A stretch of DNA of 64,000 bases from Bimastos eiseni (Eukaryota > Annelida > Clitellata > Crassiclitellata > Lumbricidae), in the NCBI GenBank assembly GCA_959347315.1, contig OY365822.1, positions 15,142,519 to 15,206,518 of the forward strand. Direction: 5' to 3'. Positions 7,536 through 52,400 of this stretch are shown here, in pieces; the stretch's first letter is position 1, and each line of letters begins with the position of its first letter. Under the pieces are notes generated by a model. It worked only from the letters and a program-made list of their open reading frames with translations, was not told the DNA's origin and ran no database searches. The position numbers and the translations under genes were made by a program.

Positions 7536-7637
7536 CTGGCAGACGTAACTTCATGGCCAGACGTACATGTGTAACTACTAGTTACACATGTACGTCTGCT
7601 TCATGGGCAGGTCTGGTCATGAAGTTACGTCTGCCAG
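7536..7637. repeat. nested palindrome
   Basis: Outer arms of 27 bases (7536-7562 and 7611-7637, one mismatch) start CTGGCAGACGTAACTTCATG. Inside them lies a perfect inner hairpin with 19-base arms and a 3-base loop (7558-7598). Twelve unpaired bases separate the inner hairpin from the right outer arm. The structure abuts the next hairpin directly. Confidence 0.9.
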
Positions 7638-7638
7638 A

Positions 7639-7805
7639 TTTATATGGCGCCTAACGCGACCATACCGCTACAAGGGTGCCTCACATACAACTAAAGATTA
7701 AGTTGTAACCTAGTTGGATACGTAGTTACTATGTTACAATTTAATCTTTAGTTGTATGTGAGGCACCCTTGTAGCGGTATGGTCGCGTAACGGCACCATA
7801 TAAAT
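7639..7805. repeat. long near-perfect hairpin (foldback)
   Basis: The arms 7639-7709 and 7733-7805 are about 72 bases each with about four differences. The inner ~50 bases (from CGCGACCATACCGCTACAAG inward) have a single mismatch. The loop is 23 bases. There is no coding potential. It resembles a foldback MITE or a hairpin-RNA precursor. It lies between the nested palindrome and a (TTA)n tract. Confidence 0.9.
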
Positions 7806-7807
7806 CA

Positions 7808-8135
7808 TCTTTATTATTATTATTACTATCCTTTTTTTCGAGATACATAGGATCCCTCAGGGACTAGGACATTATTTAAGAAAAATAGAAAAACGTCTAT
7901 TCGTTGTCGAGGTCCATTGTTGCAAATGTACTACGAAATGCAACCGCATTGAATCGCTGGACTATGATGGCTAGGCGCTGAAACAGATAGGAGGTCTCGC
8001 GTTCATCACCAGATATTGTGCTGAGATTCCGTCCCAAGGAGGAAATGTAAGCCAAGCCTTCAGCACACACGTGGCCCATAGTTTCGAAGGCAAGAGGAAC
8101 GAAGTGATGGACTGCTGAGAGTTCGATGTACTTGT
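7808..8135 (-). pseudogene. non-LTR retrotransposon 3' end, copy A
   Basis: Minus-strand reading starts at about 8130, next to (TTA)n, and ends at 7897. It shows FVPLAFETMGHVCAEGLAYISSLGR then [21 protein letters not shown], the C-terminal end of the same protein family as the copies at 8241 and 48904. It is strongly 5'-truncated. The short 3' UTR (7831-7896) runs into (ATA)n at 7810-7830 on the minus strand. Both ends therefore lie in TTA/TAA microsatellite. Confidence 0.8.
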
Positions 8136-8136
8136 C

Positions 8137-8160
8137 ATTATTATTATTATTATTATTATG

Positions 8161-8222
<62 letters not shown>

Positions 8223-8223
8223 G
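8137..8223. repeat. (TTA)n microsatellite
   Basis: About 85 bases of nearly pure ATT/TTA trinucleotide repeat. It separates retrotransposon copies A and B and serves as the 3' tail of copy B. Confidence 0.95.
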
Positions 8224-8938
8224 TTATCGCCCATGATGAGCTAAGTGAGTGTTGGCAATGTCCCGAAGAGGCAGGCTGCGTTCCCACGCTGAAGAACAAC
8301 TGAGATACGTTGGAACAGAAATGACGTCTCCATTGGATCGTGGGTTGCAGCACTCGTTCGACTACCCAACTCTGAGATGAACTCCAGTCCTTCACTGCTC
8401 CAAGCGCCGCCGGATTCCAAGGAGAGGGCTACGAAGTCGTGGGTGTTGGTTATGGTGGAATACTTGGCCCTCTTCGTCTTAGCTGCGCGTTCGGCTGCTT
8501 CGCCAGCTCTGATAGATGTGTCGACAAGATGTGACTTGGCGTAGGTGTCGGGCACTGTCACATCCCATGTCAGACATCGACCACGTGTCCAAGGAATGAG
8601 CGTGACGCCGTCCGGTCGCTTTCCATTGTCTCTTAGCAAGCCGAGAGGTTCCTTTTGCGCTGGAATCTTCGCCCTGCCAAGAGCTCTCCAGATGACATCG
8701 TTCAACATGCTATGTCGTTGATGTTTTCCGCTGCCTCTTCTACAAATTAGTCCATGGAGCCCTTTTGCGTCGACGCTCTCTTGACATTGGTGACACAAAT
8801 GTGGCTCGCAGAGCGTCGTTCCCAGCCTCAACCCGGCTGCCAGTCGTACATCCTCATTTGAGAGGCGCAGGCCTAGGGCAGTCACAGGGGGCGCTAGCAT
8901 CCAGTCTCCAGAATGAGGTGCTCGTGAGGCCAGCAGTG

Positions 8939-8940
<2 letters not shown>
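8224..8940 (-). pseudogene. non-LTR retrotransposon 3' end with restriction-like endonuclease motif, copy B
   Basis: The minus-strand open frame is free of stops for most of this interval (8938 to 8241). It shows SGDWMLAPPV, then GLRLGTTLCEPHLCHQC and GLHGLICRR (a CCHC-like zinc knuckle), then KRPDGVTLIPWTRGRCLTWD, which fits the K/R-PD-x(12-15)-D pattern of the restriction-like endonuclease in R2/R4-type non-LTR elements, and finally ETSFLFQRISVVLQRGNAA. Reverse transcriptase is missing because of 5' truncation exactly at a (TTA)n tract. I cannot name the clade. Dong-type R4 elements are a precedent for insertion into TAA repeats. Confidence 0.8.

Positions 8941-8985
<45 letters not shown>
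8938..8985. repeat. (TTA)n microsatellite
   Basis: About 48 bases of pure TTA repeat between copies B and C. Confidence 0.95.
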
Positions 8986-8987
<2 letters not shown>

Positions 8988-9057
8988 GTCAAGCTCTACA
9001 TCGTGTCGAACAACAAAAGTGCTGTGGAATGTGATTGCGTTGAATCGTTGGATCATT
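8986..9057 (-). pseudogene. non-LTR retrotransposon 3' end, copy C (about 70 bp)
   Basis: The minus strand reads IQRFNAITFHSTF, the last residues of the same family (compare [12 protein letters not shown] in copy A). Both sides are (TTA)n. The copy is so short that only its flanks and the homologous peptide reveal it. Confidence 0.7.
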
Positions 9058-9162
9058 ATTATTATTATTGTCACTATTATTATTAACATTATTTATATAA
9101 TTATTAATCTTTATTGTTATAGGCTATTGTTATTGTTATATTATTATTATTATTATTATTAC

Positions 9163-9198
<36 letters not shown>

Positions 9199-9357
9199 TG
9201 TTATTATTATTATTATTATTATTACTGTTATTATTATTATTATTATTATTACTGTTATAATTATTATTATTATTATTACTGTTATTATTATTATTATTAT
9301 TACTACTGTTATTATTATTATTATTATTACTGTTATAATTATTATTATTATTATTAC

Positions 9358-9396
<39 letters not shown>
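9057..9396. repeat. interrupted (TTA)n tract
   Basis: About 300 bases of TTA repeat, broken every 25-40 bases by CTG (TTACTG). This makes a higher-order array. The apparent Tyr-rich open frame is an artefact of the repeat. Confidence 0.95.
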
Positions 9397-37547: not shown

Positions 37548-38660
37548 TAGTACCAAAAGTGGGGTCAATTGGCTTTAAAATCCGAGAAGTGTGTTGAAAG
37601 AGCCTGCTACCGATCTTCGAGGGACACCAGTGCTGATGGAAAACGGAGCCAACTGGGGTACGACACTGAACGTTGCCTTGAAGGCCGGGCCGGGAAGAAA
37701 GTCAAGCACGCTCTACTCTCGTAACCGATTGCTGGAGAGCATCGACTTCGATAATCCGAAGCCGATATAGTTGGGGCCGCCGGAGAGAGCAGATGAATCA
37801 ACTTTGACGACGAAGCTGCTGGAGGGCATCAAGGGTCTGCTCCGGGACCGACTGTCGCAGATGAAACCTGGCAATTTCGACGGGAGTGGGTCTTTCGAAT
37901 CATCCTTGGCCCAGTTCGAGGTTTGCGCCAAACTTAAGCAATTGACCAACGTGGACCGAGTTGACTATATACGCTGCGCTCTGGAGAAGGCCGCGACCCA
38001 GTTGCTGTGGGAATTTTGGAGCTCGGCACTGCGCTTCGCCTGGAAGCCTACCGGGCGACGATGAACTTGGACGACTGAAGACGGTCGACGAACCGCGTTC
38101 GTGGGACTCAAGCGACCGACGAGAGTTCGCAACACCAGACCTGGCTGGAGCACTTCCTGACCAAGCAACAAGAGGAGCAGAGACGCTGGCAACGGGACAT
38201 GGAGACCAAGTTCAACCGAAAACTCCGTGAGCTGAAGAGCCGAACTACTCCGACGAACGACCCGGGTCTGGACGTTCGTCCTGCTGGTAACGATCGGCAG
38301 AGACGGACTGGCACCAACCATCGCCGATCTGCCCCGCCTGACGACCGGGGTCTGGACGTTCGTCCTGCTAAAGGCAACTGGCAGAGACGGACGGGGACCT
38401 GCTTTCGCTGTGGCCGGGCCGGACACTTCGTCTGCGACTGCCGGCAAGGTCGATATCACCGAGCCGACGCCTCTGGAGGCGGTGATCGTCAACCACGCCA
38501 CCAGGTCGAGAGCTCAGAACCGAGCGACCAGCAATGTGATCTACATCCGGGGCACGCTCAACGGACATCAACAGTTGTGCCTGGTCGACACCGAGTCTGA
38601 GGTGAGCCTCGTGCTGCATCTGCCTTGGTAGGGGTAGAGATTCATCCATGTGACCATTTC
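37548..38660 (+). pseudogene. gag region relic with CCHC knuckle and protease start
   Basis: The frame from 37771 gives a Gag-like N-terminal part (LLEGIKGLLRDRL, FESSLAQFEVCAKLKQL, YIRCALEKAA). A shifted frame contains CFRCGRAGHFVCDC near 38401-38442, a CX2CX4HX4C nucleic-acid-binding knuckle. The next frame carries VIYIRGTLNGHQQLCLVDTE, where the aspartic protease D-T/S-G box reads D-T-E, so the active site is lost. At least two frame changes separate these parts. Confidence 0.75.
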
Positions 38661-39062
38661 TTGATGGCTGCTAACGGGTCCAACATTAATGTTCTCGGGG
38701 AGGTTAGGCTGCCCATTAAGGTACGACCGGGGCTAGAAATCTCCAGTGCATTTCTTGTGTCTGACCAGATAACCGAAATTATGTTGGGCATGGTTTGGCT
38801 TAGGGAGCATCGCTGCCGATTAGGCTTCGAGTCCGGTGCATTATTCATTGGCCGCCAACGCATTCCCTTGGTGAAATTTATTGGGTCCATTTGGTGTAGG
38901 CGAGTTGCCGTCGCTGAGGACGCGGTCATTCAGCCGAAATGTCAGAGCGACGTACCCGTGCGTTCAATGTACGGTGATTTTGTTTCTGTAGCGCCAGCTT
39001 GGATGAATGAGGCCAAGAAAATTAGGCCGGTCGTTCATCTCGCTCGGGTTTTTGGGAGATAG
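38625..39062 (+). pseudogene. retrotransposon protease C-terminal part, relic
   Basis: An open frame of ~145 codons with IMLGMVWLREHRCRL, the decayed form of the I-L-G-x-D-W-L box that follows the aspartic protease in gypsy elements (the Asp is changed to Val). It lies directly after the frame break at the protease active site. Confidence 0.65.
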
Positions 39063-39389
39063 CACCAACACAACTTGAGTGAGAGTAGTTAATTAAGTGA
39101 TGACCTTGTCCTATTCGGTAAGGATCAGGTAATCGCGGGGCTTCACGCGATGGAGGTCGAAGTGAGTCGGGCGGCCGATGAGAGTCGAGAGCCGGGCGGT
39201 CATGCGCCGTCGTATGAGGGCATATTGTCCGACCTTCCAGAGGAGGTGATGCCTGATATCCGGGCGCGATTGGGTGAGTTCCTGCATGAGTTTAACGATG
39301 TCTTTTCCGAAGGGGAATAAAATCTCGGAAGGTTCGTTGGTTCTGAAGCATAGAATTGTCACGGGGAATGGGCCCCCCTTTAGGCAGCC

Positions 39390-39990
39390 CCTACGTAGAC
39401 AGCCGTTATCCCACCGAGTGGCGATCGATTAGCAGTTGAATAATTTGCTGGCGGCCTACTGCTAGCGAGTGGTCGACTAACGTGGTGTTGGCCGTAAAAA
39501 GGACGGGTCTTTACGCTTTTGCATAGACTATCGGCAATTAAACGAACGACCGAGAAAGGACAATTTCCCGCTTCCCGGTTAGATGAGTGCCTGGATGCCT
39601 TTGCCGACGGTGGGTGGTTCAGCACGCTGGACCTTCATAGCGGCTACCATCAAGGGGCTTTGGACCCGGAGCACGCCGTCAAAACAGCGTTTGTAACTCG
39701 CAGGAGTACATTACATTGGAAGGTGATGCCCTTTGGGCTCTGTAATACGCCAGACAAGTTTCAGAGGCTTATGGACTAAATTTTGCGGCCCATCTTGTAT
39801 ATCTGCACGATGTAATTATTTCTGGAGGACCCCTCGGCAACATCTGGGACGATTGAGATTGGTATTTGAGCGCGTGCGGGGGGCGATTCTTAAGCTAAAG
39901 CTGAGTAAGTGCCATCTGCTGCGTAGGGCAGTTAATTTTCTTCACCATGTGATGACCCCCAGAGGGAGTTGCTGTGGATAGTGCGAAAAT
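39390..39990 (+). pseudogene. gypsy reverse transcriptase relic
   Basis: Blocks in order: [42 protein letters not shown] (then a stop), followed in another frame by VYLHDVIIS. The last is the catalytic Y-x-D-D box with the first Asp changed to His. Inactive by both stops and catalytic substitution. Confidence 0.85.
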
Positions 39991-39999
39991 TCGCGATGT

Positions 40000-40560
40000 G
40001 GTCGAGTGGGCGATCCCGCAGCGCTTGAAGGATGTTCGATCTTTCCTCTGGCTATGCTCATATTACCGTAGGTTTATTCGAGACTTTTCGGTGCTGGCTT
40101 CTCCCCTGTTCGAGCTTACCAAGAAGGGGCGAGCTATTGTTTGAGTCGACCATATGAAACGAACTCTGACGACTACCCCAGTCCTGTCTTTGCCCAAAAA
40201 TGAAGGGATATATATATTGGACTGCGATGCCTGTGACGTTGGCATCGGGGGCATTGTTGTCCCAGAGGATAGATGGGAAAGAACGAGTAATCGTATATGG
40301 GAGTAGGTTGCTGTTCTCGACTGAGTGAAACTATTGCGTGACCCGGAAAGAGTTGTTAGCGATAGTACATTTCGTGAAACTCTTCAGGCAGTATCTGTTA
40401 GGGCGGCCGTTCGTGTTGAGAACGGACCATGCCGCCGTACAGTGGCTACAACGCACCAAGGTCGATGGTTGGAGCGGCTTGCAGAATATGAATTTCAAGT
40501 GATTCACAGGCCCGGAAAGAAGCACGGGAAAGCTGATGCGATGTCGCAGCGGCCTTGCCG
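40000..40560 (+). pseudogene. gypsy RNase H / connection relic
   Basis: IYILDCDACDVGIGGIV (RNase H first Asp region) at about 40205-40255 with broken frames around it. The frame 40325-40560 ends in RLAEYEFQVIHRPGKKHGKA, matching the usual H-R-P/G-K-x-N-x-x-A-D-A-L-S hinge that precedes integrase. Confidence 0.75.
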
Positions 40561-41302
40561 ACAGTGTGGGTCGGAGGAGTGGAGCCAGAAGTCGGCCTGT
40601 GGTATGATTTCGATGCACAGGATCGTGTTGCTCCGACTGCGGACGTCGTCTATCTATATGAGGGGCCCACTCAGGCAGCTGGTGAGCGTACCCCATCAGT
40701 CCTCTATGATGGCGAAAACAGAGACGACTTCCTGGATTTTCTTTTGCCCGCAATTCCGGTACTTGTCAGTAGGGCTTCCTCACCTGTTGTTTTTGATGAA
40801 ATGGACCCGGGACCGCCCGGTCCTGCGGCTGTTGACCAGCCTTCCCTTCTGGCGATTCCAACTATCGCCGAGCTCGAGTCGATCATCCGTTAGTCTCTCA
40901 TAGCGTCCGCCCCTCGGGAGCGGGTGTCGTTCCTGATGGCGGCCCTGAGGTGCTTCCCCATGACATCGGAACAAGTTCTCGACGAGGTTTTCAGTGCTTG
41001 TCAGCCTGGAGCAGCGGCACAGTCAGCGACATAGTCTTGAGCCTCGTCTACAGTGCATTATTATAGAAGAGGACTTTGAGGAAATTCCACCGCCTCCGGG
41101 AAGTCCACTTCCACCGGAGATTCCGCTTCCTCCGGATGACTTCTGGGAACCCGTGGTTTCTTCCATCTCCGTTTCTCCAGATCGCCCCTCCGATCCGGAG
41201 TATGTTCCAATAGCCTCTGAGTGGGAGTATGCCAGTGGCTCTTCGGAAACGCTCCCTGGTTATTCCTCGCCTATTGGAGGTTCGGATGTCGACGATGACT
41301 GA
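40555..41302 (+). pseudogene. unassigned acidic/proline-rich reading frame in place of integrase
   Basis: Frame 1 is open at 40555-40893, has one TAG, and continues to 41032. It contains PSLLAIPTIAELESIIR and, after the stop, RERVSFLMAALRCFPM and QVLDEVFSAC. Frame 2 (40994-41302) then gives IIEEDFEEIPPPPGSPLPPE, PPDDFWEPVVSSISV and an acidic end (GGSDVDDD). No integrase HHCC or DDE motif is visible. It may be an accessory or third ORF brought next to RNase H by deletion of integrase, or an unrelated captured sequence. I do not recognise it. Confidence 0.5.
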
Positions 41303-48827: not shown

Positions 48828-49451
48828 TTATTATCATCATCATCATCATCATCTTATTATTATTATTATTAATATTATTATTATTATTATGTCACATATA
48901 GTGTCATTCATCATTGGCATTGCCAACGGATCTGTCATCAGACCATCTGGGTCGCCGCTTGTCAGTGGATGGTAATTTTGACATAGTGCCCTGAAAAGCC
49001 ACCGCATTGAAACGTTGGATCAATGCCGACAAGTTCTGGAAAAGGAAGTTTGTCTCTCGGGTGTCACCGGTAGTTGTCGAAAGTCGGCGTCCAGTCTCAG
49101 ACAGAAAGGCGAGGCCCTCACTATTGAGGGGACCGAAGGTTTCTATAGCGATTGGAACAAAAGTGTATTTCTTCTCCAGCTTAGAATATTTTGTGTGTTT
49201 CCTTGTGGCTGCTATCTCCGCCTCTCCTCCAGCTGTGGAAGCTGTCTCGGGGATATAAGAAGCGGCCACTGTCGCGTCCCAAAGTAAGGCCCGCCCCCCA
49301 CTCCACGGTATCAGGGTCTGCACGTCCGGTCTCTTTCCATCTAATCTAGAAAGACCTGACGGTTCCTTGACCGCTGGAATACCGGCTCTGTTGACGCTGC
49401 GATGGATAAGGTCGTTGATATTACAGTGTCTTGCTTTACGGCCAAAACCCA

Positions 49452-49486
<35 letters not shown>

Positions 49487-52400
49487 CACTATAATCAATA
49501 TCTGAATCGGAATCATCATCATCATCAATGATGAGGATAGTGATCGACATCACCTGCTCCGAATGCGAAGAAGAACGCTGTTCGTGGATTGTGTGTGAGC
49601 AATCGCTCCACTCGATCGGCCATCCTCTCATTCCTCCGATAGATCAACTCCTCACGAAAGTAGTCGTCGATCTCACGAGCAGTATCCGAGGATGCNNNNN
49701 NNNNNNNNNNNNNNNNNNNNNNNNNNNNNNNNNNNNNNNNNNNNNNNNNNNNNNNNNNNNNNNNNNNNNNNNNNNNNNNNNNNNNNNNNNNNNNNNNNNN
49801 NNNNNNNNNNNNNNNNNNNNNNNNNNNNNNNNNNNNNNNNNNNNNNNNNNNNNNNNNNNNNNNNNNNNNNNNNNNNNNNNNNNNNNNNNNNNNNNAGGAG
49901 GATAAAGAAGGGCGAGGAGTATTGATGAAAAGGTGACGCTGAGGAATAAAGATGCCTGCTCAAAAGAAATGGAGGATGAATAGAATGAGGAGAGAGGGTT
50001 GGAGAGTGATAAAGAGGTGGTATAAGGAGAGGACATGGAATGGGCTGAAGAGGAACATAACTATCATCTCCTTCGAAGTAACGAAGACGTCTTTATCATC
50101 GCCCAAATGAATGTCTTTGTATCGACCGAATGACACATTCCAGATCCAGATGTTGACGAAAATAATCTCCATCTCTATCTCTCATTTGGAGAGAGTGGAG
50201 AGAGGGAAGGGAGAGGGAAAGAGGAAGGAAGAGAGGGAAGGGAGAGGGAAAGAGGAAGGAAGAGAGGGAAGGGAGAGGGAAAGAGGAAGGAAGAGAGGGA
50301 AGGGAGAGGGAAAGAGGAAGGAAGAGAGGAGAGAAGAGGGAAAGAGGAAGGAAGAGAGGAGAGAAGAGGGAAAGAGGAAGGAAGAGAGGGAATGGAGAGG
50401 GAAAGAGGAAGGAAGAGAGGGAAGGGAGAGGGAAAGAGGAAGGAAGAGAGGAGAGAAGAGGGAAAGAGGAAGGAAGAGAGGGGAGAAGAGGGAAAGAGGA
50501 AGGAAGAGAGGGAAGGGAGAGGGAAAGAGGAAGGAAGAGAGGGAAGGGAGAGGGAAAGAGGAAGGAAGAGAGGGGAGAAGAGGGAAAGAGGAAGGAAGAG
50601 AGGGGAGAAGAGGGAAAGAGGAAGGAAGAGAGGGGAAAAGAGGGAAAGAGGAAGGAAGAGAGGGGAGAAGAGGGAAAGAGGAAGGAAGAGAGGGAAGAAG
50701 AGGGAAAGAGGAAGGAAGAGAGGGAAGAAGAGGGAAAGAGGAAGGAAGAGAGGGGAGAAGAGGGAAAGAGGAAGGAAGAGAGGGGAGAAGAGGGAAAGAG
50801 GAAGAAAGAGAGGGGAGAAGAGGGAAAGAGGAAGGAAGAGAGGGGAAAAGAGGGAAAGAGGAAGGAAGAGAGGGGAAAAGAGGGAAAGAGGAAGGAAGAG
50901 AGGGGAGAAGAGGGAAAGAGGAAGGAAGAGAGGGAAGGGAGAGGGAAAGAGGAAGGAAGAGAGGGAAGGGAGAGGGAAAGAGGAAGGAAGAGAGGAGAGA
51001 AGAGGGAAAGAGGAAGGAAGAGAGGAGAGAAGAGGGAAAGAGGAAGGAAGAGAGGAGAGAAGAGGGAAAGAGGAAGGAAGAGAGGGAAGGGAGAGGGAAA
51101 CAGGAAGGAAGAGAGGAGAGAAGAGGGAAAGAGGAAGGAAGAGAGGGAAGGGAGAGGGAAAGAGGAAGGAAGAGAGGGGAGAAGAGGGAAAGAGGAAGGA
51201 AGAGAGGAGAGAAGAGAGAAAGAGGAAGGAAGAGATGGGAGAAGAGGGAAAGAGGAAGGAAGAGAGGGGAAAAGAGGGAAAGAGGAAGGAAGAGAGGGAA
51301 GGGAGAGGGAAAGAGGAAGGAAGAGAGGGGAGAAGAGGGAAAGAGGAAGGAAGAGAGGGGAGAAGAGGGAAAGAGGAAGGAAGAGAGGGGAAAAGAGGGA
51401 AAGAGGAAGGAAGAGAGGAGAGAAGAGGGAAAGAGGAAGGAAGAGAGGGGAGAAGAGGGAAAGAGGAAGGAAGAGAGGGAAGGGAGAGGGAAAGAGGAAG
51501 GAAGAGAGGAGAGAAGAGGGAAAGAGGAAGGAAGAGAGGGGAGAAGAGGGAAAGAGGAAGGAAGAGAGGGGAGAAGAGGGAAAGAGGAAGGAAGAGAGGG
51601 GAGAAGAGGGAAAGAGGAAGGAAGAGAGGGAAGGGAGTGGGAAAGAGGAAGGAAGAGAGGGGAGAAGAGGGTTGAAGAAAATGAGCATATAATATAATAC
51701 ATACACACATACATACACATGCACACACATACATACATACACACATACAGATGAAGAACAGGAGGCAGGGCACTTACCCTTACATGGATTACCCATAGAA
51801 CACACAGAAAGAAAGGCGTGAGACACAAGAAATCACAGAGAAAGAAAGACGGAAAGAGAGACAGACAGACAGGCGCAGAAAGGCAGACAGACACAGAGAC
51901 AGATGACTGACCTGTCATGCACTCACCTGTGATAGACTCATTTCGTTGAGTGGCGTGCAGTGTTCCTCCACCTTCTCAACAGCCCCTCTTCTCTTCTTAA
52001 GACGCTGTGCCTCCTGAGCCAGGTAAAGGTCAAGGACGGGGGTCCCCCTCAACCGGATGTCGGCCTCATTCAGCGAGTTCAGCATCATCATGACGTAAAT
52101 GGGACGCTTCCGCTCCCAGTTTCCGGTGAGAGCATCGAACAGGTGGTCTGCGTACAAGCCCTGACCCCGCTGGTCAGAGGTCAACCAGTGGGGCATGCTG
52201 GTGCGCACGTAGTGAAGATGTTGCTTGAGTCGGCGATAGAGGGCGCGAGGTATGACGTCAGCGATGGATTGGCCGTGAGGGAGGAGCTGACAGCGCTGGA
52301 GGTCAGAGATGGTGGCAGGGTCAAGGAGGTCAAGTTCAAGGTGAAGGGTGTCGGAGTGGAGGAAGGCGTCCTTGGCATTAGAAGGGATGGAATCCCAGAC

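Follow-up and report, generated by a model that had tools for sequence, protein, structure and literature searches.

The 64,000-nucleotide stretch of the Bimastos eiseni genome analysed here (contig OY365822.1, positions 15,142,519 to 15,206,518; hereafter the window) contains a row of three 5′-truncated 3′ ends of non-long-terminal-repeat (non-LTR) retrotransposons, copies A, B and C. The row spans 7811–9395 on the minus strand, and its (TTA)n separators are (TAA)n in the sense of the elements; copies A to D and their tracts, as described below, lie on this strand. Next to a (TAA)5 tail at its 3′ side (7811–7825, from the tract list and junction inspection), copy A (7831–8135) carries an open reading frame (ORF) for the C-terminal restriction-like endonuclease (RLE) region, with a stop codon at 7897 and a 3′ untranslated region of ~70 nt. 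A (TAA)n tract at 8137–8222 is both the 5′ flank of A and the 3′ tail of copy B (8224–8938), which corresponds to the final ~715 bp of a 3256-bp element and encodes a CCHC zinc knuckle and the RLE region. The (TAA)15 tract at 8942–8986 is likewise both the 5′ flank of B and the tail of copy C (8987–9055), a short 3′ end of a related element identified by a tblastn match at 8988–9050. The 5′ flank of C is a long imperfect (TAA)n array (9055–9395), possibly the original target, as it is the tail of no mapped copy.

A fourth 5′-truncated RLE element, copy D (48890–49452), belongs to a different family from B, and lies between a (TAA)n tail at its 3′ side (48854–48889), which adjoins (CAT)n on the plus strand, and a (TAA)11 tract at its 5′ truncation point (49453–49485). 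A first-pass annotation made from the letters of the window had described A, B and C as truncated 3′ ends in a single orientation with TTA on both sides, and inspection of the junctions agrees with it on positions, orientation, truncation and flanks; its count of three copies stands for this row and overlooked D, which also has TTA on both sides.

Truncated 3′ ends between TAA tracts

All four copies have (TAA)n at both junctions, and their 5′ ends lie 1, 3, 0 and 0 bp from the edge of a TTA/TAA tract. By a rough analytic estimate, in which the ten tract loci are treated as fixed, a random point would lie as near to a tract edge with p ~0.001. The tract to the right of A is also the tail of B, and that to the right of B is also the tail of C, so these are not independent evidence. 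Independent evidence for both sides within the window therefore comes from C and D, and for these two, with 5′ tracts that are no other copy's tail, the product is ~4e-7.

The 3′ ends of A, B and C share a C-terminal protein by tblastn, although C does so weakly (E 8e-5 with two proteins) and is too short to place. Amino-acid identities are 41% between A and B, 50% between A and D, and 49% between B and D, and these copies thus represent different families of one clade rather than the one family to which A, B and C had been assigned.

The protein was identified from copy B together with the 3256-bp copy at locus L025, which also serves as our reference for the 5′ ends of B copies. Copy B gave no useful match in Pfam or in single-sequence searches of the PDB, and a profile search reached R2Bm at E 0.31, behind an unrelated match at 0.06; the identification consequently relied on comparison of predicted folds, in which a C-terminal CCHC zinc knuckle and RLE fold are present and match those of R2. 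The L025 copy has an open ORF of 983 amino acids (L025:3616-6567) with an R2-like reverse transcriptase (RT) upstream of the RLE in a single frame (RVT_1, E 2.2e-16 in Pfam), and its best PDB matches are R2 proteins. RVT_1 is the sole match in a Pfam scan of the full ORF at E up to 1, with no APE endonuclease, and a CxxC…HxH stretch seen by eye near the start has no Myb or zinc finger match in Pfam. A search of the 5′ end of L025 for ribozymes yielded none; its one match, CrcZ, is due to chance in A-rich sequence and scores far under the gathering threshold. The elements are RLE-encoding non-LTR retrotransposons of the R2/R4/HERO endonuclease group.

Close by copy A, at its 3′ side, are two hairpin (inverted-repeat) sequences, at 7654–7788 and 7536–7637, with arms of 61 nt (97%) and 27 nt (96%) that look like elements of the miniature inverted-repeat type (MITEs). 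Elsewhere in the window, ORFs at 38079–40903 resemble by eye the remnants of a gypsy-type LTR retrotransposon, and a GA-rich minisatellite of ~1.5 kb with periods of 30 and 91 occupies 50199–51671.

Junctions of the B family across the genome

We searched the host genome (660 Mb in 118 contigs) with copy B and took the best 40 of 1865 candidates as a sample of the family. The 41 matches listed comprise, apart from the window's own copy, 39 of 711–713 bp that are 98.7–98.9% identical and one 46-bp piece. Relative to L025, 15 of the 39 copies are full length or nearly so, and the other 24 begin at positions 79 to 2542. The near-full-length exceptions are L009, which has an internal deletion, L034, which starts at position 7, and L023, which has an internal tandem duplication of ~220 bp, in about four units. 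The 983-residue frame is open in nine of the 15 full-length copies, and to judge from its sequences the B family may have been active recently; as it is abundant and young and retains this frame, its choice of target is open to biochemical test.

In 35/39 copies, made up of all 15 full-length and 20 of the 24 truncated ones, a tract of four or more TAA/TTA units lies within 40 bp upstream of the 5′ end, whereas the same is true of 0.3% of random points within the window (55/19,192) and of 3.9% of points taken from the flanks upstream of these loci (441/11,236). At 30 bp the numbers are 10/15 and 19/24, and TAA/TTA in perfect or imperfect form is found at 38 of the 39 loci. The first-pass annotation had proposed insertion into TTA repeats and had named unrelated, non-TTA 5′ ends in most genomic copies as the outcome that would speak against it; the B sample shows the opposite and supports the proposal.

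At the other end, a (TAA)n tail follows every one of the 39 copies, and the sequence leading into it takes more than one form. After a shared GATAA, 24 copies continue with GCATAATGTGAA and then TAA (form I), and 11 (L009, L011, L019, L026, L030, L033, L036, L039, L040, L042 and L043) have two TAA runs, the first of them internal, with a 26-bp insert between them (form II); the remaining four have another form or pass directly into TAA. Form II looks like a transduction of a downstream microsatellite flank via a read-through RNA, and the 26-bp segment possibly marks a single source lineage.

Tail, target and nests

The tract nearest to the 5′ end reads TAA in 28 of the 39 B copies and TTA in seven, with none passing in four. 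When element and repeat have the same orientation the tail is indistinguishable from the target, whereas reverse copies separate the two and make both measurable. In four of the seven TTA copies (L018, L033, L034 and L047) TTA repeats come after the TAA tail, such that TTA stands on both sides with the tail as a separate segment, and this answers the caveat raised in the first-pass annotation that a tail alone accounts for one side. TAA runs for 36 nt in L034 and 33 nt in L047 before switching straight to TTA, and in L018 a few bases separate 36 nt of TAA from the TTA, which places the tail at 33–36 nt, or about 11–12 units, in these three copies with a clean join of tail and target. A short run of TTA also follows the tail in L016, which lacks a 5′ repeat; in L019 and L043, whose 5′ side has TAA, TTA appears at +13 and +133.

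The four reverse copies with TTA on both sides suggest that insertion does not depend on pairing between the RNA tail and the repeat beside it, and they bear on the possibility that sites are set by DNA breakage or opening, or by the tail pairing with a TTA strand, rather than by recognition of the repeat by the endonuclease. Pairing could yield the observed bias in tract orientation (28 copies the same as the tail, seven opposite), but in L018, L033, L034 and L047 a TAA tail would be unable to prime by simple pairing with the flank, and the endonuclease fold appears in the predicted structures to be conserved. We consider such an origin of the sites improbable, and site selection would then lie with the endonuclease rather than with chromatin or breakage.

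Searches of the 39 B loci with A, D, the ORF and 83 of the 247 related proteins described below found 36 more fragments (at least 100 bp, E up to 1e-6), a few of which may be other reverse transcriptase elements; their density is that of flanks selected beside B copies and is not a genome average. TAA lies at the 5′ side of 20 of the 34 fragments that are away from a locus edge. At L011 and L017 several elements stand in a row with TAA between them, and at L025 a 5′-truncated copy of the same family (L025:1965-3206) lies immediately upstream of the full-length copy, its tail being the TAA tract that flanks the latter. Given nests at loci such as L011 and L017, the row of A, B and C is not a lone case.

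Template jumping by the reverse transcriptase during a single event, leaving head-to-tail fragments in one orientation, would explain why A, B and C are oriented alike with clean tails between them. It is an unlikely account, since A and B are of different families (41% identity), D, like most of the 39 B copies, stands at a locus of its own with the microsatellite on its far 5′ side, and the 5′ flank of C is a long degenerate array. Insertion at any site, with the 3′ TAA a templated tail and the 5′ TAA a product of chance, slippage or the tails of neighbours, agrees with the tail seen after all 39 copies and with the frequency of other elements' TAA tracts nearby (3.9% of flank points); we give it very little credence in view of the contrast between 35 of 39 5′ ends and 0.3–3.9% of control points, and of the four reverse copies, in which TTA lies beyond the TAA tail as well as at the 5′ side. 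Microsatellites are usual places for false assembly joins, but the idea that the assembler fused unrelated fragments ending in TTA repeats is scarcely credible, as real TTA would still be needed at the 5′ end of each element and the assembly places 660 Mb in 118 contigs with TAA/TTA at 38/39 loci.

Relatives in other collections were sought by three protein searches, which gave 592, 1726 and, for copy A, 14 relatives; at most 120 listed per search were examined, 247 of them distinct. There were none in scans of genome-contig and viral-contig collections, nor in plasmids by tblastn. Among the 247, P0183 and P0239 carry runs of N or I where homology begins on the 5′ side, and P0120 and P0125 carry them where it ends on the 3′ side.

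Several observations weigh against targeting of the microsatellite. L032, L037 and L045 have only imperfect or three-unit TAA at the 5′ end and L016 has no repeat there, and under strict abutment (at least four units ending within 6 bp) 16 of the 24 truncated copies but just one of the 15 full-length copies pass, other sequence, partly a common 5′ end, lying between tract and element in the latter. Three of the seven TTA-tract copies have no TTA directly after the tail: in L039 it lies farther out, and L015 and L038 are off-pattern. No TAA tract is present at the end of the protein match in 14 of the 34 fragments, where the match may stop short of the end of the element and two abut N runs. 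Among the listed proteins, 31 have a truncated start preceded by a visible leader, and in these a TAA-type run is clear in two, weak in two and absent from 27; the TAA habit may thus not hold across the whole group, although only some reading frames can show such runs and the comparison is weak evidence either way. A run of L in P0035 fits no part of the TAA reading. The sample of best candidates is biased towards young copies in which the last 713 bp remain, the genome-wide junctions are those of the B family, and target site duplications are unreadable within a microsatellite.

With these points taken into account, we are confident that A to D are 5′-truncated copies of RLE non-LTR retrotransposons of the R2/R4/HERO group that target a (TAA/TTA)n microsatellite. 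The element protein, with its RT, zinc knuckle and endonuclease, would nick the microsatellite, as its predicted fold suggests, and reverse transcription would be target-primed at the UAA-repeat 3′ end of the element RNA; frequent early stops would then leave 5′ truncations within the remaining microsatellite. Each insertion would leave new TAA, next to which later insertions of the same or other families could land, giving nests such as A-B-C. Families A, C and D presumably behave genome-wide as their copies in the window do. Such nests suggest that insertions, by furnishing new target, set up a simple feedback, and we tentatively picture, without leaning towards it, a community that feeds itself, in which several diverged RLE families have a TAA/TTA duplex target in common, in either orientation, and each tail enlarges the target of the others. 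If so, microsatellites and retrotransposons grow together.

Comparison with known site-specific elements

R2 has the same CCHC and RLE fold and provides the best RT matches, but its target is 28S ribosomal DNA and the target here is TAA/TTA. No insertion at the R2 site was seen, 35/39 copies being at TAA/TTA and the window having no Rfam match at gathering score, in a search that did not extend to ribosomal RNA in the 39 locus flanks.

The RT motifs of these elements give the impression of being HERO-like. The HERO clade is of the RLE group, as are the elements here, and includes microsatellite-targeting members, a likeness that we draw from descriptions of the clade. Some HERO families target microsatellites, with a leech family cited, and many are non-specific, according to a part of PMC4640811; HEROFr, HEROTn and HERODr are listed as non-specific in a part of PMC3636483. 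Togen of fish, near NeSL/HERO, is also an RLE element with a microsatellite target, although its repeat is (TG)n (PMC4640811, in part).

R4/Dong elements offer a parallel in target. Like the elements here, Dong of Bombyx mori and of Darwinula stevensoni has an RT followed by an RLE and targets (TAA)n, and insertion into (TAA)n, a trait of the Dong subset of the R4/Dong clade, is seen in 35/39 of the sampled B copies. Section 3.3 of PMC7998251 gives (TAA)n as the target of Dong in most insects, molluscs and cnidarians; a passage of PMC3774820 has a 5′ junction with seven TAA repeats used for Dong, and DongAg and DongBg are located in microsatellites in a passage of PMC3636483. Dong is described in part of PMC7998251 as having a Myb-like domain and lacking N-terminal zinc-finger motifs, whereas the ORF here has the CxxC…HxH stretch seen by eye and no Pfam Myb match. 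Microsatellite-targeted insertion is thus already known from Dong, HERO and Togen families, and the Bimastos eiseni genome displays the habit unusually clearly.
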